Shown one piece after another: positions 16,488 through 33,264 of a stretch of 64,000 nt of DNA. The position numbers were made by a program, and so were the translations under genes. The DNA lies in the NCBI RefSeq assembly GCF_003386195.1, contig NZ_QRDX01000002.1:153844-217843 (forward strand). The letters are read 5' to 3'. Under the pieces are notes generated by a model that saw nothing but the letters and a program-made list of their open reading frames with translations, did not search any database and was not told where the DNA came from. The stretch comes from Seonamhaeicola aphaedonensis (GTDB taxonomy: Bacteria; Bacteroidota; Bacteroidia; Flavobacteriales; Flavobacteriaceae). Every line of letters starts with the position of its first letter. Position 1 is the stretch's first letter.

Positions 16488-16982
16488 CTAAAGAACTTCT
16501 ATTACTTTTTTAGGAGGTTCTTTTACATTGGTTTCTTCCTTTTTCAAAAGATTTATTTTTAAAATACCGTTTTCATAGGTGGCTTTAATATTTTGGTCAA
16601 AATCAATTGATGGAGGCAGTAATAATGATTTTCTAAAGGATTTATAACTAAATTCTTTACGGGTAAAATCATCTTCTTTTTCCTCCTCTTCAATTTCTTT
16701 TTTTCCGCTTACATGAAGCACATCGTCTTCTATGGTTATTTCAAAATCATCTTTATTGTAGCTGGGTACCGCAAACTCAACTTCAAAATCTTTTTCATTT
16801 TCTTTAACATTCATTGCGGGCATTAAGCTATCTTCTTCTAAGAAATCACCATTAAAAATGTCACCAAACCTTGAAATATTACCCCAGTTTTTATCAAAAA
16901 TTCTGTTATCCCAAGGTGAAATTAATAGGTCTCTAAAGGGCGACAACCTATTTTTTCTTCTTTGTTTTAATAATGTTGTCAT
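16488..16982 (-). CDS. Small heat-shock protein (Hsp20/alpha-crystallin)
   Basis: A 164-residue ATP-independent holdase. The N-terminal region (SPWDNRIFDKNWGN) precedes the alpha-crystallin domain at residues 52-150 (AMNVKENEKDFEVEFAVPSY, then LHVSGKKE, then FRKSLLLPPSIDFDQNIKATYENGIL). The signature A-x-x-x-n-G-v-L appears as ATYENGILKI. The C-terminal IxV tail motif is present as VIEVL. A TGATATATATCA palindrome at 17049-17060 and its -7 element at 17018-17025 lie upstream and link it to the usp genes. Confidence 0.95.
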   Translation of the reverse strand: MTTLLKQRRKNRLSPFRDLLISPWDNRIFDKNWGNISRFGDIFNGDFLEEDSLMPAMNVKENEKDFEVEFAVPSYNKDDFEITIEDDVLHVSGKKEIEEEEKEDDFTRKEFSYKSFRKSLLLPPSIDFDQNIKATYENGILKINLLKKEETNVKEPPKKVIEVL

Positions 16983-17017
16983 GATATTAATTGTTTAGAT
17001 TAAACTTGATTCTAGCC

Positions 17018-17060
17018 CTAATGTATTTATAGAAATGGGTTTATGCAATGATATATATCA
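17018..17060 (-). promoter_or_regulatory. FNR/Crp-type box plus -7 element for hsp20
   Basis: Palindrome TGATATATATCA at 17049-17060, then exactly 23 bases, then TACATTAG at 17018-17025 on the minus strand. The 15-base context CAATGATATATATCA is identical to that of the usp operon at 21529. The leader to the ATG at 16982 is longer than in the other members, yet the box to -7 distance is unchanged. Confidence 0.75.
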
Positions 17061-17170
17061 GTCTGAAAATAAAGGAATTGTTTGATAGCTGAGATAGGAT
17101 GGAGTATTTTTTAAATAACTTTTGAAGTTTAAAAGCCTGATATAAATTAATCTATTACTAAATGATAATT

Positions 17171-18544
17171 CTATATCATTACTTTGTCAATTTGTAACAG
17201 CTTCGGGATAGTACAGTTCCATTTATAAACATGTTTTATTTTAAGTCTAAGGGCATCCAAAGCAGAAGGCTCTCCATGTGTTAAATAAACGGTTTCAGGG
17301 ATGTTTTTAATAAGCTTCATCCAATCAATTATTTCGTTTTGATCAGCGTGAGCCGATAGACTTTCTATAGTTCTAATGTTTGCCTTTACAGGATAATATT
17401 TTCCAAAGAATCGAATTTCATGAGCACCTTCTTGTAATTGTCTCCCTCTGGTTCCTTCAGCTTGATAACCTACCAATAAAACCGTTGTTGTAGGGTTGTC
17501 TATGATTTGTTGTAAATACGTAAGAACGCGTCCGCCAGTAACCATTCCACTTCCAGCAATTATAATTTTTGATCTTTTATCATCTATAGTTTCCCAAGTT
17601 TCTCTGTAAGATTGAATAATGTTTATGTGATAGCACATGGCATTATAATCTTGAGTTGATAATTTATGCCACTTTGGAAAGCGATTAAAGACTTCTAAGA
17701 CGTTATTGCCCATTGGACTATCTATAAAAATAGGGATGTTAGGTATTTTGTTTTTTTGATAAAGTCTCCATAGAATAAACATTAAAGTTTGTAAACGTTC
17801 TACTGCAAAGCTTGGAATAATTAGATTTCCTTTTTTTAAAATGACTTCATTTACAAGTTCAGTAAGTGTGTTTTCAATATTTTCCTTAGGGTGTAGTTTA
17901 TTGCCATAAGTACTTTCTAAAAATAAAAAATCTGCCCATTCTGGTTTCTTGGGGTCTTCTAACAAATAATCATTAGGTCTTCCAATATCTCCTGAAAAAA
18001 CAAAACGTTTACTGTTTATATCTAGTTCTACAAAAGTAGCTCCTATAATATGTCCGTTGTATTGAAAACGGTAGGAAATATTCTTAGACAACCTAACCCA
18101 TTTATCAATCATTTCAACATTAAATAGTGTTATTGTTTTTTCAACGTCTTCTTCAGTGAAAAATGGTAATGCAGGATGGTGCTTTGAATATTTTTCTTTG
18201 TTTGCTTTTTCAGTATGTTCTGCGTGTATTTTTGCACTGTCTTTTAGAATGATTTCTGCTATAGCCAAAGTGGGTGCCGTACCAATAATTTCACCTCTAA
18301 AGCCTTGTTTTACTAATCTTGGTAAATAACCAACATGATCTAGATGCCCGTGAGTTAATAAAACTACATCAATGGTTTGAACATCAAAAGGGATATTATT
18401 CCAGTTAAGATCTCGTAATTCTTTTAAACCCTGAAACATGCCGCAATCTATCAAGATGTTTTTTTCTGAAGTTTCTAATAAGAATTTAGAACCAGTAACT
18501 ACACCAGCGCCCCCTAAAAAGTGTATGTTTATATTTTTATTCAT
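17171..18544 (-). CDS. Metallo-beta-lactamase/beta-CASP nuclease-like protein
   Basis: A 457-residue protein of the RNA-processing beta-CASP group (YSH1/CPSF73-like). The zinc motif is HGHLDHVGYLPRL near residue 60, and SGDIGRPNDYLL near 165 gives the next ligand. The beta-CASP domain covers about 195-390, with FLESTYGN, IPSFAVERLQTLMFILW and the GSGMVTGGRVLTYL segment. The C-terminal motif is SAHADQNEIIDW, then YLTHGEPSALDALR. It should cleave RNA. The ATG at 18544 overlaps the stop of the upstream gene by 8 bp and is preferred over a GTG at 18559. It is third in an operon of unknown stress-type nucleic-acid proteins. Confidence 0.88.
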   Translation of the reverse strand: MNKNINIHFLGGAGVVTGSKFLLETSEKNILIDCGMFQGLKELRDLNWNNIPFDVQTIDVVLLTHGHLDHVGYLPRLVKQGFRGEIIGTAPTLAIAEIILKDSAKIHAEHTEKANKEKYSKHHPALPFFTEEDVEKTITLFNVEMIDKWVRLSKNISYRFQYNGHIIGATFVELDINSKRFVFSGDIGRPNDYLLEDPKKPEWADFLFLESTYGNKLHPKENIENTLTELVNEVILKKGNLIIPSFAVERLQTLMFILWRLYQKNKIPNIPIFIDSPMGNNVLEVFNRFPKWHKLSTQDYNAMCYHINIIQSYRETWETIDDKRSKIIIAGSGMVTGGRVLTYLQQIIDNPTTTVLLVGYQAEGTRGRQLQEGAHEIRFFGKYYPVKANIRTIESLSAHADQNEIIDWMKLIKNIPETVYLTHGEPSALDALRLKIKHVYKWNCTIPKLLQIDKVMI

Positions 18545-19391
18545 GATTTTGACTTTCACAAAGCATAACTATTTCATTCATAATCTTCTCTTTTCGTATT
18601 TCTGAAATTCCTAGATGATCGAGATAGAAAACATCTCCAATTAGTTCTCTACATAGTATTATGTCTCGGTTTATTAGAAATTGTTTTTCTCTTTTCGTTA
18701 ATAGTGTAGAAACCGTAATAGGGTAGAGTGCTAAACGATCTATACGGTCTTTTAAGCCGTCATTTTTTGGATAATCCCAACTGAGTAAGTACAGGTTAGC
18801 ACAACTACCATATTGTATGGCATCTTCTGTGAACCGTGTATTAGTTACTACCCATCCTTTGGTAAGCTTAGAAGTATTTTTGAAATTCCTGTTCCAATGT
18901 ACTTGTACATCTTTATAACGTGAATTAATATAAAGAGGGATTTTTACATTACAATTAAGTCCTTCTTCATTGTGAAATTTACATTCAACAATGGTAGTTT
19001 CATTATTTTTATGAGCTAATATATCTACTTCGTGAGTTACACATTGACCTTGCAATATCTTACCTACTTCTGTTCTATATCCTGAAAACTCTAAAATAGA
19101 ACTTACAAAACGTTCAAAAGGAAAACCTGTTGGCCCCAATTCATAGATTGCTTTTTTTAATTTGTATTTTGAGGCTAGATAACTTTTCTTTCTTTTAAGT
19201 AAGGCGTAAGCTCTGTTGTAAATTTCATTAGTAGAAATACCATGATATAATTCGTCTCTTACCTTATTGATTATTTCATCAATTGTTTGAGAATCTGCTC
19301 CGGTTCGGTTTAGTGAAGTTCTTAACTTATTTAATGAAAACTTAACTTTTGTACCAGATGTTTTTATAATATCAATTGTATTAGTTTCCAT
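18537..19391 (-). CDS. ATP-cone and PD-(D/E)XK nuclease-like fusion protein
   Basis: A 284-residue protein. Residues 5-90 match an ATP-cone (IIKTSGTKVKFSLNKLRTSL, then GISTNEIYNRAYALLKRK), the nucleotide-sensing module best known from ribonucleotide reductase. Residues 95-195 carry a PD-(D/E)XK restriction-like core: GFPFERFVSSILEFSGYRTE, then HEVDILAHKNN and TTIVECKFHN (Asp and E-x-K). The last 80 residues are unassigned. The ATG at 19391 is chosen because the ATP-cone starts at once; a TTG at 19457 would add 22 residues. An effector-gated nuclease is a reasonable reading, but the activity is unproven. Confidence 0.72.
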   Translation of the reverse strand: METNTIDIIKTSGTKVKFSLNKLRTSLNRTGADSQTIDEIINKVRDELYHGISTNEIYNRAYALLKRKKSYLASKYKLKKAIYELGPTGFPFERFVSSILEFSGYRTEVGKILQGQCVTHEVDILAHKNNETTIVECKFHNEEGLNCNVKIPLYINSRYKDVQVHWNRNFKNTSKLTKGWVVTNTRFTEDAIQYGSCANLYLLSWDYPKNDGLKDRIDRLALYPITVSTLLTKREKQFLINRDIILCRELIGDVFYLDHLGISEIRKEKIMNEIVMLCESQNHE

Positions 19392-19449
19392 TTTAGATAT
19401 ACTTTGTGAAGCAGCAGCACTTAGTGATTTTGGTAAAGCAAAGGATTGT

Positions 19450-19716
19450 TTAATCAAAGTAGGTTTTTACCCAAGCAATTACTTGATTATTAGTCATACT
19501 ATCTACCTTTATTAGATCTATGACTTTAGATTCCAAATCTTTGTAATTATTTGATAATTCCTTATGAAATTTTAATCCAGTTTCGGCAGGTCTAAAAAGA
19601 ACGATAGCCTTAGCATCTTTAACTTTCATTGCTAAATCTTTAAAATAGTCCTTTAATTGATGTTTCTCTCGTTCTAGATACTTACTGTCTTGTACAACAT
19701 CTATTTTGCGTTTCAT
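19450..19716 (-). CDS. Small unknown protein, eRF1-domain-like
   Basis: An 88-residue basic protein (MKRKIDVVQDSKYLEREKHQ...). The segment KAIVLFRPAETGLKFHKEL resembles the GPAE-K pattern of bacterial eRF1-like and host-attachment proteins, with R in place of the usual G. That similarity is from memory and weak. It opens the operon with the ATP-cone and beta-CASP genes and lies 78 bp after the usp gene at 19795, so read-through from the usp promoter is possible. If the eRF1 likeness holds, the three genes form a ribosome or RNA stress module. Confidence 0.55.
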   Translation of the reverse strand: MKRKIDVVQDSKYLEREKHQLKDYFKDLAMKVKDAKAIVLFRPAETGLKFHKELSNNYKDLESKVIDLIKVDSMTNNQVIAWVKTYFD

Positions 19717-19794
19717 TATTATCTATATCTTAATTTACTTGAAAAAAGCATCATTCAAACAACCATTGTCTATCTGTTTAGGTATTAGCGGTAC

Positions 19795-20625
19795 CTATGC
19801 AGGAATAACTAAAAAAGGTATGGTTGGATGAAATCCTAACTTTTTTATTATTGGCTCTTTGGTAAACTTTTCAATAATACTTTTTTTATAGTTTACCATG
19901 GCTAGAATATCAATGTTCAATTCCTCAATGAAATCATTAATCTCAGTTGTTTTATTTGCATAATTTGGCATCCAATGATATGAGTGCTCATAATTAGATA
20001 AGAATTTATCTAAAACAGATAAATTGCGTTCTTGATTATCATCTATATATTCTTTTTCTTCAATATGAAGAACCCTAATTTTAGAATTATACAGTTCAAC
20101 CAATTCTTTTAATGTGTTTAATTCTTTATCTGCATAAAGCCTATTAAAATCTGTGGGGAATGCAACTTGATGAGGTTTTACAAAATCAAATTCATCAGGA
20201 ACTACTAATAAAGGACAAAACGGATTACTTTTAATAACATGCACCGTATTGCTTCCAAAGAAGAACTCTTTTGAAGCTGTGCTGCCTTTAGTACCCATAA
20301 CAATCATATCAATATTTAAATCTTTAATAGCTTTTTTAATTGCAGTTGTTAAATCTAGTGTGCTCAATATTGTTTCAAATTCATGATTTGCGTTAGCATT
20401 ACTTGTTTCGGATAATTCCTTAAGTGCTTTTAACTCTTTTAAAGATTCCTTTTTCATTGTTTCCAATAGTTTATTAGAAAGGTTTGATATTACAGAAATC
20501 TTTATTACTTGTGAGTTTAGAAAGTAAAATGTGCATTCTACATCAGCATAAAGCTTCAGGGCATAAACTGCAGCACTCCAAGCATTATCTGAGAAATCTG
20601 TAGGTAGTAAAATATTTCTTTTCAT
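19795..20625 (-). CDS. Universal stress protein with two UspA domains
   Basis: A 276-residue tandem UspA protein. Domain 1 covers residues 1-145, starting KRNILLPTDFSDNAW and ending with the nucleotide-binding pattern MGTKGSTASKEFFFGSNTVHV and LLVVPDE. Domain 2 covers 150-276 and is degenerate: it has AFPTDFN but lacks a complete G-2x-G-9x-G(S/T) motif. Such proteins bind ATP or act in stress survival. It follows the next usp gene with a 12-bp gap, so the two share the promoter at 21498-21540. Confidence 0.9.
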   Translation of the reverse strand: MKRNILLPTDFSDNAWSAAVYALKLYADVECTFYFLNSQVIKISVISNLSNKLLETMKKESLKELKALKELSETSNANANHEFETILSTLDLTTAIKKAIKDLNIDMIVMGTKGSTASKEFFFGSNTVHVIKSNPFCPLLVVPDEFDFVKPHQVAFPTDFNRLYADKELNTLKELVELYNSKIRVLHIEEKEYIDDNQERNLSVLDKFLSNYEHSYHWMPNYANKTTEINDFIEELNIDILAMVNYKKSIIEKFTKEPIIKKLGFHPTIPFLVIPA

Positions 20626-20637
20626 ATTGTTTGGTTT

Positions 20638-21477
20638 TTATTGAGCAGGAATCACTAAGAAGGGAATATTTAAGTGGAAACCTATTTGATTAATTGTAGA
20701 TTTAAAAAATAAATTTTCAAAAAAGGAGTGTTTATTATTAATCATAACCAATAGATTGATATGTGCTTTTAATTGAAAATCACTAATGGCCTGAGGAACC
20801 GTTTGATTACTCACACTGTGGAATAAATATGATACACGATTAAGGTATGCCTCTAGTTTATTTTTATTTATATTTTGTTTTTCAGAGAGATCATAGCCGT
20901 AAGACACATTTAAAACATTAATTCTAGTTTCGTAAAGTGAAAGAATATCAATGATAGGTTTCATGTGAGTATCATCGAATTCAATCTCATAATCTGTAGG
21001 AAATAAAACTTCCTGGGGTGATTCAAATACATAATTTTCAGGTATTGCTAAAATGGGGCACTTAACATTTTTAAAAACATGAACAGTATTAGAGCCAAAC
21101 AAAATTTCTTCAATCCCAGAAGCCCCTTTAGTGCCCATAACTACATAATCTATATTTTTCTCTTTAACCATATCCTTTATTTCTGAAACTAGTGTGTTAA
21201 AAACAGCTTTAACCTCTATGGCATGCTTAGGGTTATTGTAGTTTAAATCAATTCGTTCTTTTAATTGGTCAAACTTTTTAAGCGCTCTTTCCATTACAGC
21301 GTCACCCAAACCATATTGAGTTGGATTGCCTAAAACAAACTCTGTGTGATATATCATTGGTGTATAAGTGTGTAGTAGATAGAATTTACAAGTTACATCT
21401 TTAAAAAGTTGCATAGCGTAGCTTATGGCATTCCAGGAATTGCTTGAAAAATCGGTAGGTAAAAGTATTTTTTTCAT
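20638..21477 (-). CDS. Universal stress protein with two UspA domains
   Basis: A 279-residue tandem UspA protein. Domain 1 starts KKILLPTDFSSNSW and keeps MGTKGASGIEEILFGSNTVHVF near residue 130, the ATP-binding type motif. Domain 2 (LFPTDYEIEFDD onward) is degenerate. The start is the ATG at 21477. A longer frame to 21528 (MCMCFEV) would put the start next to the regulatory palindrome and inside the -7 element at 21498-21505, and no Usp extends there. It leads an operon with the usp at 19795 and perhaps the three genes beyond. Confidence 0.92.
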   Translation of the reverse strand: MKKILLPTDFSSNSWNAISYAMQLFKDVTCKFYLLHTYTPMIYHTEFVLGNPTQYGLGDAVMERALKKFDQLKERIDLNYNNPKHAIEVKAVFNTLVSEIKDMVKEKNIDYVVMGTKGASGIEEILFGSNTVHVFKNVKCPILAIPENYVFESPQEVLFPTDYEIEFDDTHMKPIIDILSLYETRINVLNVSYGYDLSEKQNINKNKLEAYLNRVSYLFHSVSNQTVPQAISDFQLKAHINLLVMINNKHSFFENLFFKSTINQIGFHLNIPFLVIPAQ

Positions 21478-21497
21478 GGTTACTAATGCTTTATTAC

Positions 21498-21540
21498 CAA
21501 AGTTAGGTACCTCAAAACACATACACAATGATATATATCA
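21498..21540 (-). promoter_or_regulatory. FNR/Crp-type box plus -7 element for the usp operon
   Basis: TGATATATATCA at 21529-21540, 23 bases, then a consensus TAACTTTG at 21498-21505 on the minus strand. The ATG at 21477 is 20 bases further. This is the best-conserved member of the set and supports the shorter Usp start. Confidence 0.8.
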
Positions 21541-21591
21541 GATAGAATCTAAGCTATGAGGAGGGGTTAAGGTTTTGTTTATAATAAATTA

Positions 21592-21625
21592 AAAAAGGGA
21601 GTATTTATAAAAAAACTCCCTTTTT
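21592..21625. terminator. Hairpin with T/A tracts
   Basis: AAAAAGGGAGT (21592-21602) pairs with 21615-21625 across a 12-base loop, with flanking A and T runs, so it could terminate in either direction. On the minus strand it lies about 50 bases before the usp box. Confidence 0.65.
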
Positions 21626-21672
21626 CAATCACAATACAAGTTGTGAAATAATTAATAGCCATTAAATAAACA

Positions 21673-21700
21673 GAAACAGGAAGATAGAACTTCCTGTTTC
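21673..21700. terminator. Perfect 11-bp hairpin
   Basis: GAAACAGGAAG (21673-21683) pairs with 21690-21700 across a 6-base loop. The flanking T tract is short, so it may be a terminator or a structural RNA element. Confidence 0.5.
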
Positions 21701-21922
21701 CTTTATTGAAATATTTAATTCTTTTAAACATCCTTTTCTAATCATTAATATTTTCAATAGTTATATTAAATCTTTGGATATCTAATAGATTTAGATATTT
21801 CTAAAACAGTCTTTAGTATTTTGAAATCCAAAAACTGTTTTTATAAGGTAATCAATGTCATTGTTCAACTTTCGGTTTTCTTCAACATAAACTTTTTAAC
21901 TAAAAACTATGCTGATGTTTTC

Positions 21923-21971
21923 ATTTTAAACAATAGCATCAAACACCTTACTTTGTGTTATTGTTTAAAAT
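21923..21971. other. AT-rich inverted repeat, 13-bp perfect arms
   Basis: ATTTTAAACAATA (21923-21935) is exactly inverted at 21959-21971. Three more pairs (one G-U) extend the stem inward, leaving a 17-base loop. It lies about 100 bases past the stop of the membrane gene at 22075. It could be a terminator, an RNA stability element or a protein site. Confidence 0.5.
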
Positions 21972-22074
21972 AACACTTAGGCTTTTTCAATACGTAATAG
22001 AACTTTTTACTTATTGTACTAATATATGCTTGAAAATATTAATAATAAATGATATTCCTCAGTTTTAATGAAAT

Positions 22075-22461
22075 TTATGATGGAATAATTTCATAAGCAA
22101 TATTTAATAAAAATAGACCTGTAAATAACAGTAGAGTATAAATAACTTGCACTAGTTTAATATTCATGATTTGTAAGGCTGGTACTGCACGTTTTGGAAA
22201 CATAAATAGTGATAAGCCAATAAACAGCGATGACCAACCAATAACTGTGATTAAAAGTTTCCAGTTTGGTTCCCAGACATTATGGAATAAAATATTTATT
22301 AAGCCTACAATAATAGCTACAAATGCAGAGATAATTAAAAATTTCTCATCATGAAGATCATTAAAGATTTGTTTAATGCGCTTTGGGTTGAAACTTAGTA
22401 TCATGAAGAAAATGAGTAAATACCAACCCCAGAATTTTGCTAAAAAAATTGATATATCCAT
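22075..22461 (-). CDS. Four-helix membrane protein of unknown function
   Basis: A 128-residue hydrophobic protein with four predicted transmembrane helices, at about residues 8-26, 43-63, 70-87 and 103-124. Only a short polar loop (NPKRIKQIFNDLHDEK) lies between helices 1 and 2. No family motif is recognised. It starts 10 bases after the usp gene at 22472 and so belongs to its regulated operon, which suggests a membrane role in the same stress response. Confidence 0.78.
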   Translation of the reverse strand: MDISIFLAKFWGWYLLIFFMILSFNPKRIKQIFNDLHDEKFLIISAFVAIIVGLINILFHNVWEPNWKLLITVIGWSSLFIGLSLFMFPKRAVPALQIMNIKLVQVIYTLLLFTGLFLLNIAYEIIPS

Positions 22462-22471
22462 AGTGTTTTAA

Positions 22472-23314
22472 TTATTCATGTAACACCAAAAAAGGTGTTT
22501 CTGTATTATAACTTATTTGTTCTACTTTAGAATGAAATAGAATTTGTTGAAAGTAGTTAAGGTTTTTTGCTACCATACAAATCATGTCTGTATTTCTACT
22601 TTCAACAAAACATTGTATGGCATCCTCAACTTTTTTATTGGTTAAATAGTGGAAACTATGACTAAAATGTGCAAAATAATCCTCTAATAAATCCCTATTT
22701 CTATTTTGTTCTCTATTTAAATTCACTCCATTCTTAGAGATATGGAGAATTCTTAATGATGATGGGTGTTTTTCTAAAATTTCAGTTATGGGTTCTAAAA
22801 TGCTAATATCATATGTTAATGAAAAATCTGTAGGGAAAGCAATTTCTTTAATTCCTGAAAAATTAGCAAGCTCAGGAACTGCCAGAATAGTACATTTTAC
22901 TTTTGTTATAACACTTCCTGTATTACTTCCCACTATAACTTTTCTTAGTCCAGAGGCACCTTTGGTACCCATCACAATACAATCTATTTTTTTTTCTTCT
23001 ACATGGTTTCGAATAGATTCAATAAAAAATCCGTAATCTGAAATAGTATAAAACTTATGCTTATTATTTGCAGTAAATTGTTTTGTAATACGTTTTAACA
23101 CCTTGCGTAACTCTAATTTACCTGTTAAGGTGTGGACGTCATTTATAGTATCCTCTTCAGCAATAAAATGAGAGTTATCAGTCGTGAAGTTATCAAACCT
23201 ATTTATATGTAGTAAATAAAAATTACATATTTCGTCTCCAAAAAAATTAATAGCATATTTAATTGCATTCCAAGAGTTTTCTGAAAAATCTGTAGGAAGT
23301 AGTAAATTTTTCAT
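22472..23314 (-). CDS. Universal stress protein with two UspA domains
   Basis: A 280-residue tandem UspA protein. It starts KNLLLPTDFSENSWNAIKYA, with MGTKGASGLRKVIVGSNTGSVI near residue 120 as the nucleotide-binding pattern. The second half (AFPTDFSLTYDIS) lacks that motif. It is a paralogue of the proteins at 19795 and 20638. It leads an operon with the membrane protein at 22075 and is preceded by its own box and -7 element. Confidence 0.92.
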   Translation of the reverse strand: MKNLLLPTDFSENSWNAIKYAINFFGDEICNFYLLHINRFDNFTTDNSHFIAEEDTINDVHTLTGKLELRKVLKRITKQFTANNKHKFYTISDYGFFIESIRNHVEEKKIDCIVMGTKGASGLRKVIVGSNTGSVITKVKCTILAVPELANFSGIKEIAFPTDFSLTYDISILEPITEILEKHPSSLRILHISKNGVNLNREQNRNRDLLEDYFAHFSHSFHYLTNKKVEDAIQCFVESRNTDMICMVAKNLNYFQQILFHSKVEQISYNTETPFLVLHE

Positions 23315-23334
23315 CTGCTAGTATTTTACTTACA

Positions 23335-23377
23335 CTAATATATTTAGTAGACACTTAAAAGGAAATGATATCGGTCA
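23335..23377 (-). promoter_or_regulatory. FNR/Crp-type box plus -7 element for the second usp operon
   Basis: On the minus strand TGACCGATATCA (23366-23377), 23 bases, then TATATTAG (23335-23342). The ATG at 23314 is 20 bases on, matching the first usp operon. Confidence 0.72.
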
Positions 23378-23397
23378 TTTTAAGCTCATTAAGCTAG

Positions 23398-24438
23398 CTA
23401 ACAGATTTTTTTAAGCTTTTCAATATCAATTACTTTAATGTTTCTGCCATCTGCTTTAATGATGCCTTCTTTTTTAAAAATTGATAAAGTTCTAATAAAT
23501 GTTTCGGGAGATATACCAGCAACACTAGCTAAATCATTTCTTGATATTTTAATGAGTTTATCTGGATTGCGGTTCATTTTTTCAGCAAATTTCAAAATGG
23601 TAGCTGCCGTTTTCTTGTTGACAGAGCTATAAGCCATTTGAATGAGTTCTTTCTTTACAGTAGACAGATTATCAGCCAGTAATTCAATAAGCTCAATAGC
23701 CACTTTGTGGTTTTCATCGAGGATTTTCTTAAACTCTAAAATAGAAATCCCAACTAATTTGGTGTCCTCAATTGCGGAGGCCGTTTCTCTATGAGGTGAG
23801 TTTTGTGTGAAATAATTGTATCCAAATAAATCATCTTCTTTATATAAGGCTGTAACAAGTTCTTTGCCTAATTCGTTTATTTGATAACATTTTACTGCCC
23901 CTTTGCTTATTAAGTAAATATAGTTAGAGTGGTCTCCTTCACGATATATAATTTCTTCTTTGTTAAAAGCAAATTCGTCTCCATAATCATCAAAAAAAAT
24001 CTTTAAATCGTTAAGTGTTTTTATTTTTTCATCATCTTCTTTGGGTTGTTTATCCCTTTCTTTTAGAATAGACACTTTTGCCAAACGACTTTCAATAGCA
24101 CTTATGAGATCATCTTCAGAGAATGGTTTTGTAATGTAGTCATCGGCTCCCAAATTCATGCCTTTTCTAATATCTTCGTGCTCTGTTTTGGCAGACAAGA
24201 ATATGAAAGGGATATACTTTGTTAAATTACTTTTATAGAGTTTTTTTAGAACGCCGTAGCCGTCAAGTTCTGGCATCATAATATCGCATACAATAATGTC
24301 TGGCTGGTGTTTTTTTGCAAATGTTACCCCCGTTTTACCATTTGATGCAGTTAAGACTTTATAGTTATTCAGTTCTAAAAGTTCGGCCGTATTTTCTCTT
24401 AAAACAACATCATCTTCTATTAATAAAATTGTTTTCAT
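23398..24438 (-). CDS. Response regulator fused to a Crp/Fnr DNA-binding module
   Basis: A 346-residue regulator. The receiver domain covers residues 1-122, with acidic ED at 8-9, phospho-acceptor Asp52 (IIVCDIMMPELDGYG), Ser98/Lys100-type SAKTEHED and KPF near 108. A cyclic-nucleotide-binding-like domain covers about 155-260 (EEIIYREGDHSNYIYLISKG), and it lacks the usual cAMP-contact RE pair. The Crp HTH covers 275-340. The recognition helix ISPETFIRTL has Glu312 and Arg316, the E-x-x-x-R pair that reads TGA/TCA half-sites in Crp and Fnr. It follows the LOV kinase gene by 14 bases and is very likely its partner. It lacks the Fnr iron-sulfur cysteines. Confidence 0.9.
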   Translation of the reverse strand: MKTILLIEDDVVLRENTAELLELNNYKVLTASNGKTGVTFAKKHQPDIIVCDIMMPELDGYGVLKKLYKSNLTKYIPFIFLSAKTEHEDIRKGMNLGADDYITKPFSEDDLISAIESRLAKVSILKERDKQPKEDDEKIKTLNDLKIFFDDYGDEFAFNKEEIIYREGDHSNYIYLISKGAVKCYQINELGKELVTALYKEDDLFGYNYFTQNSPHRETASAIEDTKLVGISILEFKKILDENHKVAIELIELLADNLSTVKKELIQMAYSSVNKKTAATILKFAEKMNRNPDKLIKISRNDLASVAGISPETFIRTLSIFKKEGIIKADGRNIKVIDIEKLKKIC

Positions 24439-24452
24439 GAGTTTGAATTTTA

Positions 24453-26366
24453 TTAGTTTGTGCCTTCAAGGTTGTATTCCATATGGATTTGTTCAGCATT
24501 ATTTGGAAAGCTAATTTTGAACGTAGAACCAATATTTTCTTCACTTTCAAATTTTATAGTGCCTCCCAAATTTTCTAAATGGTTTTTTACAATATTTAAT
24601 CCTATGCCAGTTCCTTGAGTGTTCATGACATTATCAGCTCTAAAGTATCTTTGGAATATTCTTGCTTGATCTTTTTCAGGAATACCAATACCTTTGTCTG
24701 TTATTTTTAAAGTTGTAAACCCATCATGCTGTTTAATGTTTAAATCTATACAGCTTTCTTCAGGTGAATATTTAATGGCATTGTGTAATAGGTTAGAAAA
24801 AATTAACTGAATAATCTTTTCATCTTGGTAAACCGATATGTCATCAATATCCTCTGGATAATTTATTTTTTGTCCTTCTTTTAATAACATATTGTAATCA
24901 TAAACGACCTCATTAACAACCTTACTTAATTTAAAATGGGAATACTTGTAATTTACCTTACCAGATTCTAATTTTTCAATAGATAAAAAGTCATTTAAAA
25001 TATTATTTAAAAAATGTACTTTGTCAGTAATTATATTTATGTGCTTATTTCTTTTTTCTTGATGTTCGGACAATTGGTATTTACTTAAGAGTTGTGTAGA
25101 AGTTAATATGCCACTTAAAGGTGTTTTGAATTCATGAGATACTAGAGATAGGAATTTAGATTTTAATTCATTTAGCTCTTTCTCTTTACTTAAAGCAATT
25201 TCTAATTGTTGTGTTCTTATCTCTACTTCGTTTTCAAGTTTGGTGGTGTAATTTTTCCTATCCGTTATATCTAAAACAATAGCAACAAATACTTTTTTTT
25301 CTCCTAAGTCTGAAATTTGTAAATGAACCTCCACAGGATAGGTTGAGCCATCTTTACGTTGATGTACTGTTTCAAACTCAATTTTATCCATATTTCTATT
25401 TAATAAGGTGTTAATAGATTCTTTTAAATTAGACACATTGCTTTTAGTAGTAATTTCTAAAGGGGTCATTACTTGCAATTCATCTAAACTAAAGCCTATG
25501 TTCTTTTTAGCTCCGTAATTAGCATTTATAAACTTTAATGTTTCAACATCAAATACATAAATTTCGTTTAAAGATTCATCAAAAATAGTGGCTAGATGAT
25601 GTCGTTCTTCTTCTACCTGTTTACGTTGGGTAACATCGTTTTGTATACCTATGAAATTTGTTACAATACCCTTTGTATTCGTTATTGGAAAAACATAAAG
25701 ATCATTCCAAAACATAGTGCCATCTTTTTTATAATTACGAAGTGTTGCCTGACAGCTTTCACCTTTTTTAATAGCTTCTCTTAGTTTTTTAAGTGGTGCT
25801 TGGTCTCTATCTTTACCTTGCAAAAATCGGCAATTGTGATTGAGTATTTCTGTATTAGAATATCCGGTAAGATCTTGAAAGGCTGAATTGAAAAATACCA
25901 CAGGGTTATCGTCTTTTAAGGCATCAGTTATTATTATACCATTTCTAGCAGATTGCAATGCTTTGGTTCTAAGCATTAGGCTTTCTTCAATCTTTTTTCT
26001 TTCAGAAATATCCCTAATCAAAGCCATTACATAGGTTTTGTTGTATATTGAAAATGGATTCAATTCAATATCCATTGGAAAAATAGCGCCATCTTTTTTT
26101 AAGCCATAAATATTTTTGGTTTCTCCCATTTTTCTGCGAGTCCCCCTTTTTAAAAAAATGTTGAAAAAAGTAGTGTGTTTTTTACGATAATCTGCCGGAA
26201 GAAGTAAACTTAGTTTTTTATCAATCAACTCATTTTTAGAATATCCGAAAATGTTTTCAGCAGCCAGATTAACCTCCATGATTTTTTGTTGATTATCAAC
26301 AATAATAACACCTTCAAAAACGGCCTCCAATAAAATATTAAATATCTCTTGATCCTGATTGAACAT
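24453..26366 (-). CDS. LOV-domain PAS histidine kinase (putative blue-light or flavin sensor)
   Basis: A 637-residue soluble kinase with no membrane segment. PAS1 is at residues 5-121. A LOV-type PAS is at about 136-248 and carries NHNCRFLQG with photo-adduct Cys179, plus the flavin-contact positions Asn178, Gln183, Asn211, Asn221 and Gln242 (NYKKDGTMFWND and FIGIQNDV). The pattern is very close to Bacillus YtvA. PAS3 is at about 252-371. A short coiled linker leads to HisKA with His411 (SHEFKTP) and HATPase with Asn529 (NLLHNAIKYS), then GIGIPEKDQARIFQRYFR and GTGIGLNIVKNHL. It is co-transcribed with the receiver-Crp regulator, and its own promoter has the shared box. Light sensing is inferred from the residues present. 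Confidence 0.92.
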   Translation of the reverse strand: MFNQDQEIFNILLEAVFEGVIIVDNQQKIMEVNLAAENIFGYSKNELIDKKLSLLLPADYRKKHTTFFNIFLKRGTRRKMGETKNIYGLKKDGAIFPMDIELNPFSIYNKTYVMALIRDISERKKIEESLMLRTKALQSARNGIIITDALKDDNPVVFFNSAFQDLTGYSNTEILNHNCRFLQGKDRDQAPLKKLREAIKKGESCQATLRNYKKDGTMFWNDLYVFPITNTKGIVTNFIGIQNDVTQRKQVEEERHHLATIFDESLNEIYVFDVETLKFINANYGAKKNIGFSLDELQVMTPLEITTKSNVSNLKESINTLLNRNMDKIEFETVHQRKDGSTYPVEVHLQISDLGEKKVFVAIVLDITDRKNYTTKLENEVEIRTQQLEIALSKEKELNELKSKFLSLVSHEFKTPLSGILTSTQLLSKYQLSEHQEKRNKHINIITDKVHFLNNILNDFLSIEKLESGKVNYKYSHFKLSKVVNEVVYDYNMLLKEGQKINYPEDIDDISVYQDEKIIQLIFSNLLHNAIKYSPEESCIDLNIKQHDGFTTLKITDKGIGIPEKDQARIFQRYFRADNVMNTQGTGIGLNIVKNHLENLGGTIKFESEENIGSTFKISFPNNAEQIHMEYNLEGTN

Positions 26367-26406
26367 GATACACTATGTTTTTCTAATAATTACAAATTAT
26401 TATTTA

Positions 26407-26480
26407 TAAAGTTACGAATTGTTCATTTGGATTTGACTGATTTTTGTCATATGAAAAAAGCTAATAAGTGTCTAGTTTTA
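26407..26480. promoter_or_regulatory. Bidirectional FNR/Crp-type box with two -7 elements
   Basis: TGATTTTTGTCA at 26438-26449 is shared by divergent promoters. On the plus strand TAGTTTTA (26473-26480) follows 23 bases after the box and serves the TerB-like gene. On the minus strand TAACTTTA (26407-26414) follows 23 bases after the box and serves the LOV kinase operon. The second arrangement would make the regulator autoregulated. Confidence 0.72.
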
Positions 26481-26501
26481 TTAAAACTAAATTTTGTAGA
26501 C

Positions 26502-26909
26502 ATGAAAACTCAAAAAAGGATGACACTCAAGTTCTATCAAAGTCTTGGCAGGTTATTCTATGCCATAGCCGCCGCTGACAAGCAGGTAAGAAAAGTAGAA
26601 TTTAATAAGCTTAAGGAGTTAGTTAGAGAACAGTGGTTACCTTTAGATTCTACAGAAGATGAGTATCATTCAGATGCCGCTTATCAAATAGAAATTGTTT
26701 TTGATTGGCTGAATAATGAAGAAAACTTAAATGCTCAAGCTTGCTATGATGCCTTTATAAATTACAAAAATGAACAGCCTCATTTATTTACTGAAGAGGT
26801 AAATAGTCTCATTCTTAAAACAGGTAATACAATTGCCAACGCATTTGCAGGTATAAATAAATCAGAACTAATGATGCTAGCCAATTTAAGTATAGAATTA
26901 AAGAAATAG
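26502..26909 (+). CDS. TerB-like helical protein
   Basis: A 135-residue all-helical protein. RLFYAIAAADKQVRKVEFNKLKELVREQW resembles the TerB or DUF533 metal-binding helical pattern, with the acidic second helix segment VDSTEDEYHSD-like and the C-terminal GNTIANAFAGINKSELMMLANLS. The ATG at 26502 lies 52 bases past the box; in-frame ATGs further upstream would start inside the promoter region. TerB-like proteins are linked to stress and envelope processes. It lacks a signal peptide. The domain call is moderate. Confidence 0.65.
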   Translation: MKTQKRMTLKFYQSLGRLFYAIAAADKQVRKVEFNKLKELVREQWLPLDSTEDEYHSDAAYQIEIVFDWLNNEENLNAQACYDAFINYKNEQPHLFTEEVNSLILKTGNTIANAFAGINKSELMMLANLSIELKK

Positions 26910-27048
26910 GTTAAGACTAAGTTTTCTTATATAAAATGCTCCATTGAAGGTAATATTTACTTGACCTATTAATTGTTATTACATCAAAAATTGATTTGAA
27001 AAACAAGAGATTACTTGGTTTATAACCCTTTTTTAAATAATTATTGAA

Positions 27049-27933
27049 ATGTCATTTATAGACTATTATAAAATACTAGGTGTGTCAAAAACTGCCACTG
27101 AGGCAGACATTAAAAAGGCCTACCGGAAATTGGCACGAAAATACCATCCAGATTTAAATCCAAATGATACGGTAGCCGAAAAAAAATTCAAAGAAATTAA
27201 TGAAGCTAATGAAGTATTGAGTCATCCTGAAAACAGGAAGAAATATGATCAATATGGAGAACACTGGCAACATGCTGAAGAATTTGAGAAGGCCAAACAG
27301 CAAGAGCAAAGCAAAGGCAGTTATACTAGTTCTGATGGGTATTCAGAAGAGGATTTTTCAGATTTTTTTGAACATATGTTTGGAGGTACATCTTCAAGAG
27401 CCAGAGGAGGACAAGTAAAATTTAGAGGACAAGACTATAATGCAGAATTACAACTAAGCCTTCAAGATGTTTATACAACTCATAAACGTACACTAACAGT
27501 AAACAATAAAAATATACGTATTACTATACCTGCTGGTGTAGAAAACGGACAAATAATTAAAATTAAGGGCCATGGTGGCAAAGGTGTAAATGGAGGTCCA
27601 AATGGTGATTTGTATATCCAGTTTTCAATTTCAAACCATACCAATTTTAAAAGAGATAAAAACAATCTTTATGTTGATGTAGATTTAGATTTATATATAG
27701 CTCTACTAGGAGGAGAGATTACCATTGATACATTTAACGGTAAAGTTAAACTTAACATAAAACCAGAAACTCAAAATAGAACTAAAGTCAAGTTGAAGGG
27801 CAAGGGTTTTCCTAAATATAGAAAAGAAGGACAATTTGGAGACCTTTATGTTACTTACTATATTAAGATACCTACCAACTTAACCACTCAAGAAAAGGAG
27901 TTAATAAAGGCGTTACAAAATATAAGAAAATAA
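27049..27933 (+). CDS. cbpA: DnaJ/CbpA-type co-chaperone
   Basis: A 294-residue J-domain protein. The J-domain is at residues 4-68 with HPD at about 35-37 ([10 protein letters not shown]). A Gly/Phe-poor linker ([12 protein letters not shown]) follows, then C-terminal beta domains CTD I and II ([19 protein letters not shown], then [20 protein letters not shown]). It has no zinc-finger CxxCxGxG repeats, which makes it CbpA rather than DnaJ. It overlaps the next gene by one base (TAATG). CbpA stimulates DnaK and is held by CbpM, whose homologue is the next gene. Its promoter has no copy of the island box. Confidence 0.92.
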
Positions 27934-28223
27934 TGAAAGAGCAAGATTTAATATCAGTACAGTTGCTTTGTAAGCGTTATAATGTTCCAAATTCGTTCAT
28001 AGAAAAATTACAGGAATATCAACTCATTGAAGTCATTGTTAGGCAAGAAGATTTTTTTATTCATGTAGCACAAATAAAAAAAGTTGAGAAACTAATGCGT
28101 TTACATTTTGACCTAAATATTAATTTAGAAGGCGTAGATGTTATATATAATTTATTGAAACAAGTAGAGGATTTACAAGAAGAAATTAAGTCTCTCAAAA
28201 ACAAGTTAAACCGTTATGAGTAA
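27933..28223 (+). CDS. CbpM-like chaperone modulator
   Basis: A 96-residue protein with a MerR-like HTH fold: LLCKRYNVPNSFIEKLQEYQLIEVI, a hydrophobic VRQEDFFIHVAQIKKVEKLMRLHFDLNINLEGVDVIYNLL, and a coiled C-terminus. In E. coli CbpM binds the CbpA J-domain and inhibits it. The one-base overlap with the cbpA-like gene (TAATG) supports this pairing more than sequence alone. Confidence 0.8.
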   Translation: MKEQDLISVQLLCKRYNVPNSFIEKLQEYQLIEVIVRQEDFFIHVAQIKKVEKLMRLHFDLNINLEGVDVIYNLLKQVEDLQEEIKSLKNKLNRYE

Positions 28224-28234
28224 TATATTATAAA

Positions 28235-30050: not shown

Positions 30051-30064
30051 ACAAATTGAACAAC

Positions 30065-30107
30065 TGACTTTTATCATTGTTCTAGTTTTAAAAATAAGTT
30101 AGTTTCA
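30065..30107 (+). promoter_or_regulatory. FNR/Crp-type box plus -7 element for the PNPOx-like gene
   Basis: TGACTTTTATCA at 30065-30076, 23 bases, then TAGTTTCA at 30100-30107. The start at 30187 is 79 bases beyond, so the leader would be longer than in the usp genes. The half-site TGAC and the -7 element are less perfect. Confidence 0.5.
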
Positions 30108-30186
30108 TCTTACTAATTCAACAAAATCTTAGTTTTCTGTTGAGTTATGATGCTGTTATTCTGAAAAAACGAAACTATATAATTAA

Positions 30187-30636
30187 ATGAAAGATTTAAA
30201 TAAATTTGAAAGTTCTTGTATTCTAAAGAACAATTATATTGGCTACTTGTCATATATAAGCAAAGGCAAACCTTATGTTGTTCCAATCACTTATTATTAT
30301 TCCGAGGAAGGAGATTATATAATTAGCTATTCAGGAGAAGGTCACAAGATAGATGCAATGCGTTCAAATGATTTGGTGTCTTTTTGTGTAACCGAAATAG
30401 ATAATGTAAATAAATGGGAGTCAGTAATGGTACAGGGTAAATTTCAACAACTTCAAGGAGCATATGCTAAGCAACAATTGCATAAGTTTGTTTTGGGAGT
30501 AAAAAAAATGATTTTTAAGGAAAGTAATAAATATCCAGATTTGATAAGTGATTTTTCTAGTAAAGTAACCTCAGGAATACCCATAGTATACACCATAAAA
30601 GTAATGGATATAACTGGGAAAAGCAGAGAGTACTAG
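30187..30636 (+). CDS. Pyridoxamine 5'-phosphate oxidase-fold protein
   Basis: A 149-residue FMN-binding split-barrel protein: NNYIGYLSYISKGKPYVVPITYYYSEEGDYIISYSGEGHKIDAMRSN is the flavin-binding first half, and VMVQGKFQQL follows. Members include nitroimidazole reductases and heme-degrading proteins. It lacks a full PNPOx catalytic signature, so substrate is unknown. It is monocistronic and convergent with the mlaD-like gene. A weak AT hairpin at 30651-30671 sits between the stops. Confidence 0.82.
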   Translation: MKDLNKFESSCILKNNYIGYLSYISKGKPYVVPITYYYSEEGDYIISYSGEGHKIDAMRSNDLVSFCVTEIDNVNKWESVMVQGKFQQLQGAYAKQQLHKFVLGVKKMIFKESNKYPDLISDFSSKVTSGIPIVYTIKVMDITGKSREY

Positions 30637-30650
30637 GTAATACAATGGTT

Positions 30651-30671
30651 AATAATTACATTCTAATTATT
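30651..30671. terminator. Weak AT-only hairpin between convergent genes
   Basis: AATAATTA (30651-30658) pairs with 30664-30671 across a 5-base loop. It overlaps the stop of the mlaD-like gene. The stem has no G or C, so its strength is doubtful. Confidence 0.3.
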
Positions 30672-31656: not shown

Positions 31657-31670
31657 GACTGTAGTTTTAA

Positions 31671-32426
31671 TTATTTAAAAAACGCTCTTACTTTTTCATC
31701 TTTATAAGCTTCTAGTTCTTTAAAAGTGCCTTCAGCATAGTTTACACCATCTACAAGTAGAATCATGCGTTCAGATATGACCCGTGCACAATCTACATCG
31801 TGCGTTATTATTAAGGATGAGGTATTATATTGTTTTTGAACACGTCTCATGAGTTCAATAATTTCTTTTGATGTTATTGGGTCTAAACCACTTGTAGGTT
31901 CGTCATACAAAATAATTTTAGGTTTTAATATGAGTGTTCTAGCTAAGGCTATTCTACGTTTCATGCCTCCCGAAAGTTCTGAAGGCATTAAATCGATTGC
32001 TTTTAACAATCCAACACTTTTCAATGTTTCTTCCACAAGAGGTGTAGTATCTTTTAAATTGCCAAACTTATTTTTGTGTCTACGCAATGGAAATTCAAGG
32101 TTTTCTCTAACTGTCATAGAATCATATAAGGCGCTACCTTGAAATAAGAAGCCTATATTGATGCGTAGCGCATCTAATTCTAATTGGTTGAGGTTTAATA
32201 AGTTTTTTCCCAAAACATGGATGCTTCCAGAGTCGGGCTCCATCAATCCTACCAAACATTTTATCATAACAGACTTTCCAGATCCCGATTTACCCATAAT
32301 TACAAGATTTTCGCCTTCAAAAAGCTCTAAATTAAATCCGTTCAAAACATGATTATCACCAAAGCTTTTTCGTAAATCTTTAATTTTTAATATCGACTTC
32401 TTTTGTATGTTTCCAGTGTTGGTCAT
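31671..32426 (-). CDS. MlaF-type ABC transporter ATPase
   Basis: A 251-residue ATPase. Walker A is MGKSGSGKSVM near residue 43, the Q-loop is FLFQGSALYDSMTV, the signature is LSGGMKRRIALART, Walker B is IILYDEPTSGLDPI and the switch is ITHDV. The GMKRR form of the signature is typical for Mla-type ATPases. It lies between the permease and MCE genes with gaps of 3 and 14 bases. Confidence 0.93.
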   Translation of the reverse strand: MTNTGNIQKKSILKIKDLRKSFGDNHVLNGFNLELFEGENLVIMGKSGSGKSVMIKCLVGLMEPDSGSIHVLGKNLLNLNQLELDALRINIGFLFQGSALYDSMTVRENLEFPLRRHKNKFGNLKDTTPLVEETLKSVGLLKAIDLMPSELSGGMKRRIALARTLILKPKIILYDEPTSGLDPITSKEIIELMRRVQKQYNTSSLIITHDVDCARVISERMILLVDGVNYAEGTFKELEAYKDEKVRAFFK

Positions 32427-32429
32427 CTC

Positions 32430-33200
32430 TTAAGTTTCAAAAAATAAATCTGTCACAAACACTGCTATAAAATCTAAAACAAAAAGCAGCATTGATGAAA
32501 AAACCACAGCAGAATTGGCCGCATCACCAACACCAACGGTACCTTTATCACAATAATAGCCTTTATAACAACCCACAAGACCAATGGCAAATCCAAAGAA
32601 AAAAGTTTTAATGGTAGCAGGAATGATATCGCCAAAGGCTATGGAATTAAAAACTTTGTTAAAGTATAATTGAAAAGACACATCTCCTTTTATATTTTCT
32701 ATTAAATATGAACCATATAAGGCAATAGCATCTCCAAAGATTACTAAAATAGGTAAGGTAAGCGTGGCAGCTAAAACCCTAGTAACAACTAAAAATTTAA
32801 AAGGATTTGTTCCAGAAACTTCCATAGCATCTATTTGCTCTGTAACTCGCATAGAGCCTAATTCAGCACCTATTCCAGAAGCAATTCTACCTGCAAATGT
32901 TAACGCTATTATAACGGGACCAATTTCTCTGATTATAGAAATACTTACCATTGAAGGCATCCATGACTCTGCACCAAATTCTTCTAGCGTAGGGCGAGTT
33001 TGTAGTGTAATAACTAAGCCGATAATAAAACCAGTTATACTAACTAATAATAGCGATTTGTAGCCTATAGCGAAACACTGTTTAATGAGTGCTTTGAGCT
33101 CAAAAGGTTTTGAGATTAGTTCTCTGAAGAACCGAAGAGCAAAATATGTAAGCTCACCTATTTCTATAAAAAAAGACTTTATAAGACTTGATTTTGACAT
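32430..33200 (-). CDS. MlaE-type ABC transporter permease
   Basis: A 256-residue permease with the MlaE pattern: LLVSITGFIIGLVITLQ, ISIIREIGPVIIALTFAGRIASGIGAELGSMRVTEQIDAMEVSG near residue 95-135, and five hydrophobic segments. It forms the membrane part of the phospholipid transporter that keeps outer-membrane lipid asymmetry. A TGATAAATATCA box with a -7 element lies just upstream, which places the lipid transporter in the same regulon as the Usp proteins. Confidence 0.92.
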   Translation of the reverse strand: MSKSSLIKSFFIEIGELTYFALRFFRELISKPFELKALIKQCFAIGYKSLLLVSITGFIIGLVITLQTRPTLEEFGAESWMPSMVSISIIREIGPVIIALTFAGRIASGIGAELGSMRVTEQIDAMEVSGTNPFKFLVVTRVLAATLTLPILVIFGDAIALYGSYLIENIKGDVSFQLYFNKVFNSIAFGDIIPATIKTFFFGFAIGLVGCYKGYYCDKGTVGVGDAANSAVVFSSMLLFVLDFIAVFVTDLFFET

Positions 33201-33221
33201 AACATGTAATCTCCAATCTAC

Positions 33222-33264
33222 TAAATTTAGATATTAAATGGCAGATACTGAATGATAAATATCA
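33222..33264 (-). promoter_or_regulatory. FNR/Crp-type box plus -7 element for the mlaEFD-like operon
   Basis: TGATAAATATCA at 33253-33264, 23 bases, then TAAATTTA at 33222-33229 on the minus strand, 21 bases before the ATG at 33200. The half-sites are perfect TGAT and ATCA. Confidence 0.75.

Follow-up and report, generated by a model that had tools for sequence, protein, structure and literature searches.

A rigidly spaced Crp/Fnr-type promoter box in Flavobacteriaceae that seems to be shared by a one-piece receiver-Crp regulator and an Fnr-like paralog, with a candidate box-driven structured RNA

The known systems that most resemble the one analyzed here are the FixL-FixJ-FixK2 cascade of rhizobia, in which the PAS kinase FixL reaches a Crp/Fnr-type output through two separate proteins; the FNR/ANR regulons, with TGA half-sites six bases apart centered at -41.5; the DosS/DosT-DosR system of mycobacteria, with heme-sensor kinases and a LuxR/NarL-type output domain; and FnrS, PhrS and similar low-oxygen small RNAs of Gammaproteobacteria, encoded downstream of an Fnr-type box. 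Here, we present a computational analysis of a stretch of 64,000 nucleotides (the window) from Seonamhaeicola aphaedonensis (assembly GCF_003386195.1, contig NZ_QRDX01000002.1, positions 153,844 to 217,843), a member of the Flavobacteriaceae, a family common in the sea. In the window, the palindrome TGA-N6-TCA (the box) recurs exactly 23 bases before a TAnnTT promoter element, upstream of stress and survival genes that neighbor the gene of a response regulator with receiver, cyclic nucleotide-binding and Crp-type DNA-binding domains (receiver-Crp). These palindromes are probably class II activator sites of a Crp/Fnr-type hypoxia and survival regulon, read both by receiver-Crp, with its FixL/DosP-like kinase partner, and by an Fnr-like paralog encoded elsewhere in the genome.

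The initial annotation of this DNA placed six palindromes at 17049, 21529, 23366, 26438, 30065 and 33253 and, in seven promoter directions, a TAnnTT at a distance of exactly 23 bases. All six sites and all seven directions are present, as is the identical 15-mer claimed for two of them (TGATATATATCATTG, at 17049 and 21529, minus strand). TGA-N6-TCA occurs 29 times in the window against 20 expected, and the loose pattern box-N23-TAnnTT 11 times against 0.47 expected, a number reached in 0 of 100 shuffles. With a position weight matrix (PWM) trained solely on 417 sites from other genomes (see below), six of the seven directions were the six top-scoring places in the 64 kb (24.6 to 31.6), while a single place exceeded 12 (at 23.2) across 20 sequences simulated under a Markov-1 model and scored on one strand. 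The seventh-best place (21.3) is a box at 22050-22061 missing from the original list. The loose matches at 24667, 34850 and 45658 scored 1.1 to 5.8 and look like chance occurrences.

To extend the search we used the symmetric form TGAY-N4-RTCA-N23-TAnnTT, with the reversed pattern as the control. In the genome of S. aphaedonensis (3.5 Mb in 41 contigs) we counted 44 sites, compared with 5 when the pattern was reversed, which excludes a random scatter of the motif; 6 of the 44 lie inside an open frame of more than 400 bases, including the divergent pair at 26438. We also collected loci around receiver-Crp orthologs in Flavobacteriaceae genomes and metagenome-assembled genomes, keeping the best 80 (ca. 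1.6 Mb in all; a few genomes contribute two loci, and each locus reaches at most 10 kb from the regulator, farther targets being uncounted). These held 417 sites and none in the reversed control, with at least one site per locus and a median of 6, and the box was kept before orthologous genes, chiefly those of the usp and TerB-like types.

The spacing is strikingly rigid. When the distance from palindrome to TAnnTT was scanned from 0 to 60 across the 80 loci, 23 gave 417 matches, 22 gave 16 and 24 gave 20; a peak of 86 at distance 0 we attribute to the T-rich stretch after the box. A minor excess was also seen at spacing 29 (34 versus ca. 15), which fell to 0 with the full TAnnTTTG. When TAnnTTTG plus an extra T was required, 133 matches remained at spacing 23, compared with a mean of 0.28 over the other 129 spacings between 1 and 130. 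The gap within the palindrome is similarly fixed: at spacing 23, TGA-N6-TCA gave 440 matches, and gaps of 2 to 5 or 7 to 12 bases gave 10 to 30. The box is followed by T in 97% of the sites and preceded by C or A in 93%, giving the consensus mTGAY-N4-RTCAT. In Flavobacterium psychrophilum, the TAnnTTTG box is located at -12 to -5 according to PMC9723704, and on that scale, carried over from one species to another, the palindrome would be centered at -41.5, the position of a class II activator and in line with the center near -41 proposed in the initial annotation. The argument made there, that a fixed spacing in seven cases is hard to obtain by chance, is borne out by a regulon with rigid geometry, far above chance genome-wide and conserved in related genera.

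Among the 417 sites, assigned by the closest window gene, 168 precede usp-like genes (89 Usp_C, 68 Usp_A and 11 Usp_B), followed by TerB-like (41), Hsp20 (16), PNPOx-like (16), CbpA-like (10), kinase (6) and MlaE (2) genes and by five other window genes with one site each; 30 precede no called gene and 123 precede other genes, 22 of them members of one ccoN-like cluster (named by eye, and resembling a COX1-family gene of the S. aphaedonensis genome). The median leader after TAnnTT is 26 bases. Outside the window, we scanned 30 of the 35 genes downstream of boxes in the same genome (five, L005, L009, L011, L026 and L128, were left out as tiny or inside other genes); 22 of the 30 matched a Pfam family at 1e-5. 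They include citrate synthase, Hsp20, CBS, phosphotransacetylase, cytochrome c, pyruvate:ferredoxin oxidoreductase (PFOR), thioredoxin, Usp, a CitMHS transporter, a hibernation factor (Ribosomal_S30AE), ribonucleotide reductase, Pyr_redox_2, an MBL-rhodanese protein, TonB, pyruvate phosphate dikinase (PPDK), pyruvate formate-lyase, COX1 and a radical-SAM protein (HemN-like by eye), among others. We read this as a set of low-oxygen and survival genes.

The first proposed reader of the box is encoded at 23398-24438 (minus strand), with Pfam matches to Response_reg, cNMP_binding and HTH_Crp_2. The latter two (PF00027, 1e-16; PF13545, 6.5e-14) place it in the Crp/Fnr superfamily fold, and the receiver domain (PF00072, 7.5e-29) has the acceptor Asp, Thr/Ser and Lys when aligned with PhoB. 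It scored 72 bits against a cutoff of 266 with the NCBIfam equivalog for CRP proper and lacks the FNR-type N-terminal 4Fe-4S cysteine cluster, its N terminus being the receiver domain and its three cysteines scattered. In Crp/Fnr proteins, the Glu and Arg of the recognition helix read TGA. The aligned columns (SRETVGR in CRP) carry E-[TS]-[LF]-[IV]-R in 80 of the 80 receiver-Crp orthologs. The genome encodes six proteins with HTH_Crp matches, three of which, by eye, have an E-x-x-I-R helix: receiver-Crp itself (ETFIR), an Fnr-like protein linked to ccoN with an N-terminal CxxC (ESAIR) and a third paralog, also with CxxC (EQVIR).

To relate the box to these regulators, we surveyed 149 Flavobacteriaceae genomes, one per genus (one, G002, was removed from the receiver-Crp set because its match covered the receiver only), taking paralogs as absent at the cutoffs used. 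Genomes with receiver-Crp and the Fnr-like protein averaged 39.6 sites (n = 36; control, 3.0), those with receiver-Crp alone 22.9 (n = 25; control, 1.9) and those with the Fnr-like protein alone 16.6 (n = 45; control, 2.7), 44 of these 45 exceeding their own control. Adding the third paralog gave 30.6 with receiver-Crp (n = 5) and 18.4 with the Fnr-like protein (n = 10), and the single genome with the third paralog alone had 8 sites. Without any of the three, the mean was 6.3 (n = 27; control, 2.6), or 4.0 (control, 2.5) in the 17 that were at least 90% complete. In a linear fit to the 126 genomes of at least 90% completeness, with kinship ignored, receiver-Crp contributed +22.8 sites (standard error [s.e.], 2.2) and the Fnr-like protein +11.6 (s.e., 2.4). 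The third paralog, with an effect of -1.1 (s.e., 2.8), was rejected as a reader of the box; this protein (L032, on contig C9 of G000) has, by eye, an N-terminal CNICGSANC stretch and lies beside a globin-like gene, and its presence does not track the box. Outside the family, in 152 genomes of the class (two fragments, G202 and G288, were dropped, and five Flavobacteriaceae and G168, of the same order, were excluded), the ranking was the same: 16.6 sites with both regulators (n = 30), 8.4 (n = 42) or 8.2 (n = 33) with one only and 3.8, against 2.1 in the control, with neither (n = 47). Boxes are also crowded beside the receiver-Crp gene, with 1,000 per Mb in the kilobase directly after it compared with 258 per Mb across the 80 loci.

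The box seems to be shared by receiver-Crp and the Fnr-like paralog. The initial annotation had proposed receiver-Crp as its reader, and as one reader the protein is backed by the tracking of site number with its presence, the crowding of boxes at its gene and the E-x-x-[IV]-R helix in all 80 orthologs; as the sole reader it is unsupported, because genomes with only the Fnr-like protein also carry boxes.

Next to the regulator, at 24453-26366 (minus strand), lies its partner histidine kinase, which on Pfam and PDB matches comprises a FixL/DosP-like first PAS domain (25977-26366), a PAS domain with a LOV motif (NCRFLQG), a third PAS stretch, HisKA and HATPase. A gene of kinase type or kinase length precedes receiver-Crp in 79 of the 80 loci (the exception, L088, begins 151 bases before the regulator), and a recognizable HisKA motif is found in the kinases of 78. 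The window kinase matched the NCBIfam YtvA and FixL models below their cutoffs. Against PDB, the top 13 of 18 sequences matched by its first PAS domain were FixL or DosP (2.9e-13 to 5.7e-11; next, 1.3e-6), as were the top 13 of 14 for the relative L074 (1.8e-15 to 7.6e-10; next, 4.2e-7), counting the entry named yddU, which we take to be DosP. By sequence, the first PAS domain is thus nearest to the FixL and DosP heme sensors, and the heme-ligand His of FixL is aligned in 76 of the 80 kinases, including that of the window. The distal Arg of FixL (presumably R220 of BjFixL) is present in 55 of 57 kinases without a LOV motif and in 5 of 23 with one. The LOV cysteine motif NCRFLQ is found in the window kinase, with the strict motif in 20 of the 80 loci and a looser one in 23 of the 80 kinases, the window's included. 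That the FixL-type Arg is mostly absent from the LOV-motif kinases suggests that the input has changed while the output stayed the same, and the window kinase may respond to blue light or redox instead of oxygen.

Within the window, the highest-scoring box with its -7 hexamer (17020..17060, minus strand; PWM 31.6) faces hsp20 (16488-16982; HSP20 in Pfam), before which it recurs in 16 of the 80 loci. The next (21500..21540, minus; 31.1) precedes two usp genes with Usp Pfam matches, at 20638-21528, for which the internal ATG at 21477 is the more likely start, and at 19795-20625. Another usp gene (22472-23314; Usp in Pfam), followed by a gene for 128 amino acids without a Pfam match (22075-22461), is preceded by the box at 23337..23377 (minus; 26.4), and a box before the most similar gene was found in 76 of the 80 related loci. 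On the plus strand, the box at 26438..26478 (26.0) leads to the TerB-like gene at 26502-26909, a name taken from the initial annotation since the Pfam scan of this gene gave no match, and recurs there in 41 of the 80 loci; the box at 30065..30105 (24.6) leads to a PNPOx/Nim-like gene (30187-30636; Pyridox_ox_2), recurring in 16 of the 80. A further minus-strand box (33224..33264; 25.2) faces the mla genes (33200-30667; MlaE and MlaD in Pfam), with a box before MlaE in 2 of the 80 loci. Other genes of the neighborhood were recorded as well. Downstream of hsp20, a beta-CASP metallo-hydrolase is encoded at 17171-18559 (minus), whose best NCBIfam models, type VII Cas14 and aCPSF1, both fell far below cutoff, and the stretch between hsp20 and usp also includes a fusion of an ATP-cone with an Mrr-type nuclease domain (18537-19457, minus). 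Beside the TerB-like gene is a pair encoding a CbpA-like DnaJ protein and a MerR_2 (CbpM-like) protein (27049-28223, plus), with a box before the CbpA-like gene in 10 of the 80 loci.

The seventh box (22021..22061 with its hexamer, minus strand; PWM 21.3) has TGAG as its first half, one step off the symmetric form, and faces a stretch without a called gene, with frames of at most 50 amino acids between 22020 and 21541. We propose that 21665..22014 (minus strand; ends estimated, possibly extending to ca. 21580) is a candidate RNA of ca. 350 to 435 nucleotides transcribed from this box, on the evidence of a conserved, covarying fold and a terminator-like site. Its layout comprises a hairpin (21950-21983), module A (21835-21953) and module B (21668-21806), the last ending in a terminator-like hairpin (21672-21701); each module consists of a long hairpin and a GAAACAGGAAG..CTTCCTGTTTC-type hairpin, terminator-like at the end. 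The segment 22017-21650 folds at -100.3 kcal/mol against -56.0 when shuffled (z = -8.87), and the two relatives folded, L038 and L042, gave z values of -8.0 and -7.8. None of the 4,227 Rfam families reached its gathering threshold over 14000-37000, the best hit at 21500-22100 being 22.6 bits against a cutoff of 55.8.

An alignment of six such RNAs has 103 pairs, 20 with compensatory change, although a fold of this kind describes its own input, and four longer RNAs, in which the MAFFT alignment shows extra modules, were excluded from the pair counts. The independent test came from 12 sequences outside the training set of model R1, the 3' module of the six-sequence alignment: cut at their R1 matches and aligned without a model, they show the same three helices, with compensatory change in 20 of 30 pairs, 47 compensatory cells against 16.7 when shuffled, and pairing that drops from 92.5% to 43 to 53% in slid versions. 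When 30 model matches from 16 of 20 loci were fitted to the model, 150 compensatory cells were counted versus 42.5 in shuffled controls. R1 (at least 40 bits, plus strand) matched in 18 of the 80 loci, with one to three modules per locus, and a loose-form box stood within 450 bases upstream in 18 of 18, where box density predicts 0.06 per place; 13 of the 18 lie outside the R1 training set, several having first been noticed through a box-led search. A wider model, R2, matched 17 of the 80 loci (E ≤ 0.001), on the plus strand only, and 20 of the 149 genomes (E ≤ 1e-4), with up to four modules in a row. The training RNAs of both models mostly adjoin receiver-Crp, which favors recovery of such cases, and a further set (A4) was left uncounted because it was contaminated by opposite-strand matches to the terminator-like hairpin (two above 40 bits). 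Receiver-Crp is present in 19 of these 20 genomes compared with 66 of the 149 overall (Fisher P = 5e-7), and the RNA lies within 2.2 kb of its gene, in a few cases a less similar paralog, in 15 of the 20; the others are G125 (480 kb away), G111, G119 and G108 (9 to 43 kb) and G138, which has no receiver-Crp. All 11 RNA loci taken from this survey have a box (the window's own locus, L131, excluded; at least two repeat loci of the 80-locus set). In G061, two more modules are found on contig C1 (549733-550220), 1.4 kb from a second receiver-Crp paralog (43% identical).

Could this RNA instead be the 5' leader of a usp gene, or a decayed coding repeat, rather than a unit of its own? A Usp-like gene (by eye) follows it in 13 of the 18 loci and in most of the 11 survey loci, and frames of 53 to 74 amino acids persist in some of the stretches. 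However, each of those 13 usp genes has its own box, so that the RNA looks like a separate unit, and terminator-like hairpins lie between the two; the frames are short and not shared, and the fitted matches have 150 compensatory cells where shuffling gives 42.5. The coding repeat was rejected on these grounds, and the two possibilities together appear unlikely. Equally doubtful is that the Fnr-like paralog is the only reader of the boxes, with the receiver-Crp gene lying among Fnr targets and its product binding something else. Many targets in the genome are indeed of Fnr type (COX1, pyruvate formate-lyase, the radical-SAM protein and PFOR), both proteins carry the E-x-x-I-R helix, and genomes with only the Fnr-like protein are rich in boxes, but so are the 25 genomes with receiver-Crp and no Fnr-like match (at the cutoffs used, other Crp/Fnr proteins being possible there), and in G143, where neither of the other two paralogs was matched, the receiver-Crp gene has 9 of the 26 sites listed (36 in total) within 15 kb.

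The initial annotation pictured a private circuit, a regulon including its own regulator, and the two directions of the 26438 palindrome, each with TAnnTT at 23 bases, gave it a basis. Read toward the kinase-regulator operon (26409..26449, minus strand), this palindrome scores 14.8, below the 10% quantile of related sites (21.7), and lacks the conserved T after TCA. A palindrome lies within 300 bases upstream of the kinase gene in 60 of the 79 relatives that have this gene, so some effect on the operon at another distance is possible. Yet the kinase-facing spacing is 23 in 6 of the 79 loci, 24 in 8 and 29 in 6, compared with 53 palindromes at spacing 23 toward the divergent gene in 52 loci. 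Autoregulation through the 23-base spacing was therefore rejected as a conserved feature, the case for self-regulation of the operon is weak, and since boxes also abound in Fnr-only genomes we find the private circuit very improbable. Just as hard to sustain is the idea that the boxes are operators of a repressor: a protein bound there, right against the -33 region, could also obstruct the polymerase, but a repressor would need no single exact distance, and the collapse from 417 matches at spacing 23 to 16 and 20 at 22 and 24 counts against it.

For the shared class II regulon that we favor, some observations pull the other way. Genera share ancestry, and the statistics relating boxes to regulators carry no tree correction. 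Boxes are abundant without any of the three paralogs in G048 (34 versus 3) and G147 (36 versus 5), both less than 90% complete. The inner bases did not distinguish the sites of one regulator from those of the other: 101 sites were typed in two genomes with receiver-Crp only and three with the Fnr-like protein only, and the 75 that end in TCAT showed no difference (TGAC, 8/40 versus 11/35, P = 0.30; GTCA, 14/40 versus 16/35, P = 0.36), a comparison in which one Fnr-only genome, G072, also has the third paralog and G143 is represented by 26 of its 36 sites. Relatives do not conserve the 23-base spacing toward the operon of the regulator itself. Lastly, the window kinase has K where FixL has its arginine in the alignment, and its oxygen sensing may therefore be lost or changed.

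From the whole we infer a chain in which the FixL/DosP-like PAS kinase, extended in the window by a LOV domain, would phosphorylate receiver-Crp, the one-piece counterpart of FixJ plus FixK. The phosphorylated protein would bind the box at -41.5 before a Bacteroidetes TAnnTTTG promoter and contact RNA polymerase. The ccoN-linked Fnr-like paralog would read the same box, and two inputs would therefore add. The regulated set would comprise usp, hsp20, TerB-like and PNPOx-like genes and, elsewhere, the ccoN-type oxidase, pyruvate formate-lyase, phosphotransacetylase, PFOR, ribonucleotide reductase and the hibernation factor, with the structured RNA, transcribed from the seventh box, as a further member. 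A bolder and more speculative extension is that Flavobacteriaceae use a compressed FixL-(FixJ-FixK) oxygen relay, the one-piece receiver-Crp sharing a promoter code with Fnr, that the neighboring new family of box-activated modular RNAs is a trans-acting arm of the hypoxia or dormancy response, and that the swap from heme PAS to LOV rewires the regulon from oxygen to light.

The analysis yields a promoter code open to testing, a gene list, two candidate regulators whose contributions can be separated and a structured RNA whose promoter can be predicted. With the 23-base rule, a candidate regulon can be listed in any member genome, and kinases with and without the LOV motif on the same output amount to a natural experiment in input switching. 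In the literature searched we found no account of the box, a receiver-Crp regulon or the RNA in Flavobacteriaceae, and the main text of PMC9723704 mentions neither Crp nor Fnr. The elements are each of a known kind; for their combination and for the RNA family we found no description in that literature.

Compared with the rhizobial cascade, the locus is alike in the FixL-like PAS kinase adjoining the regulator, the Crp/Fnr-type output, the ccoN-type oxidase among the box-carrying genes and a Crp-like site at the class II position. It differs in that receiver and Crp module form one polypeptide, which removes one transcription step, in its box (TGAY-N4-RTCA before a Bacteroidetes promoter) and in that many of the kinases have another residue in place of the FixL arginine and contain a LOV motif. 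With the FNR/ANR regulons it shares the half-site geometry and such targets as COX1, pyruvate formate-lyase, phosphotransacetylase, ribonucleotide reductase and usp, whereas an N-terminal cysteine cluster is missing from receiver-Crp, the box seems to serve two regulators, and the base before TGA is C or A in 93% of the sites instead of T. The resemblance to DosS/DosT-DosR lies in the heme-sensor type of kinase and in the joint presence of hsp20, several usp genes, a CBS protein, ribonucleotide reductase and a hibernation factor; with a Crp output domain here in place of the LuxR/NarL type, it is a likeness of function, not of descent. Finally, the candidate RNA, like FnrS and PhrS, lies downstream of an Fnr-type box, but it is longer, has no Rfam match and is built from one to four repeated modules.

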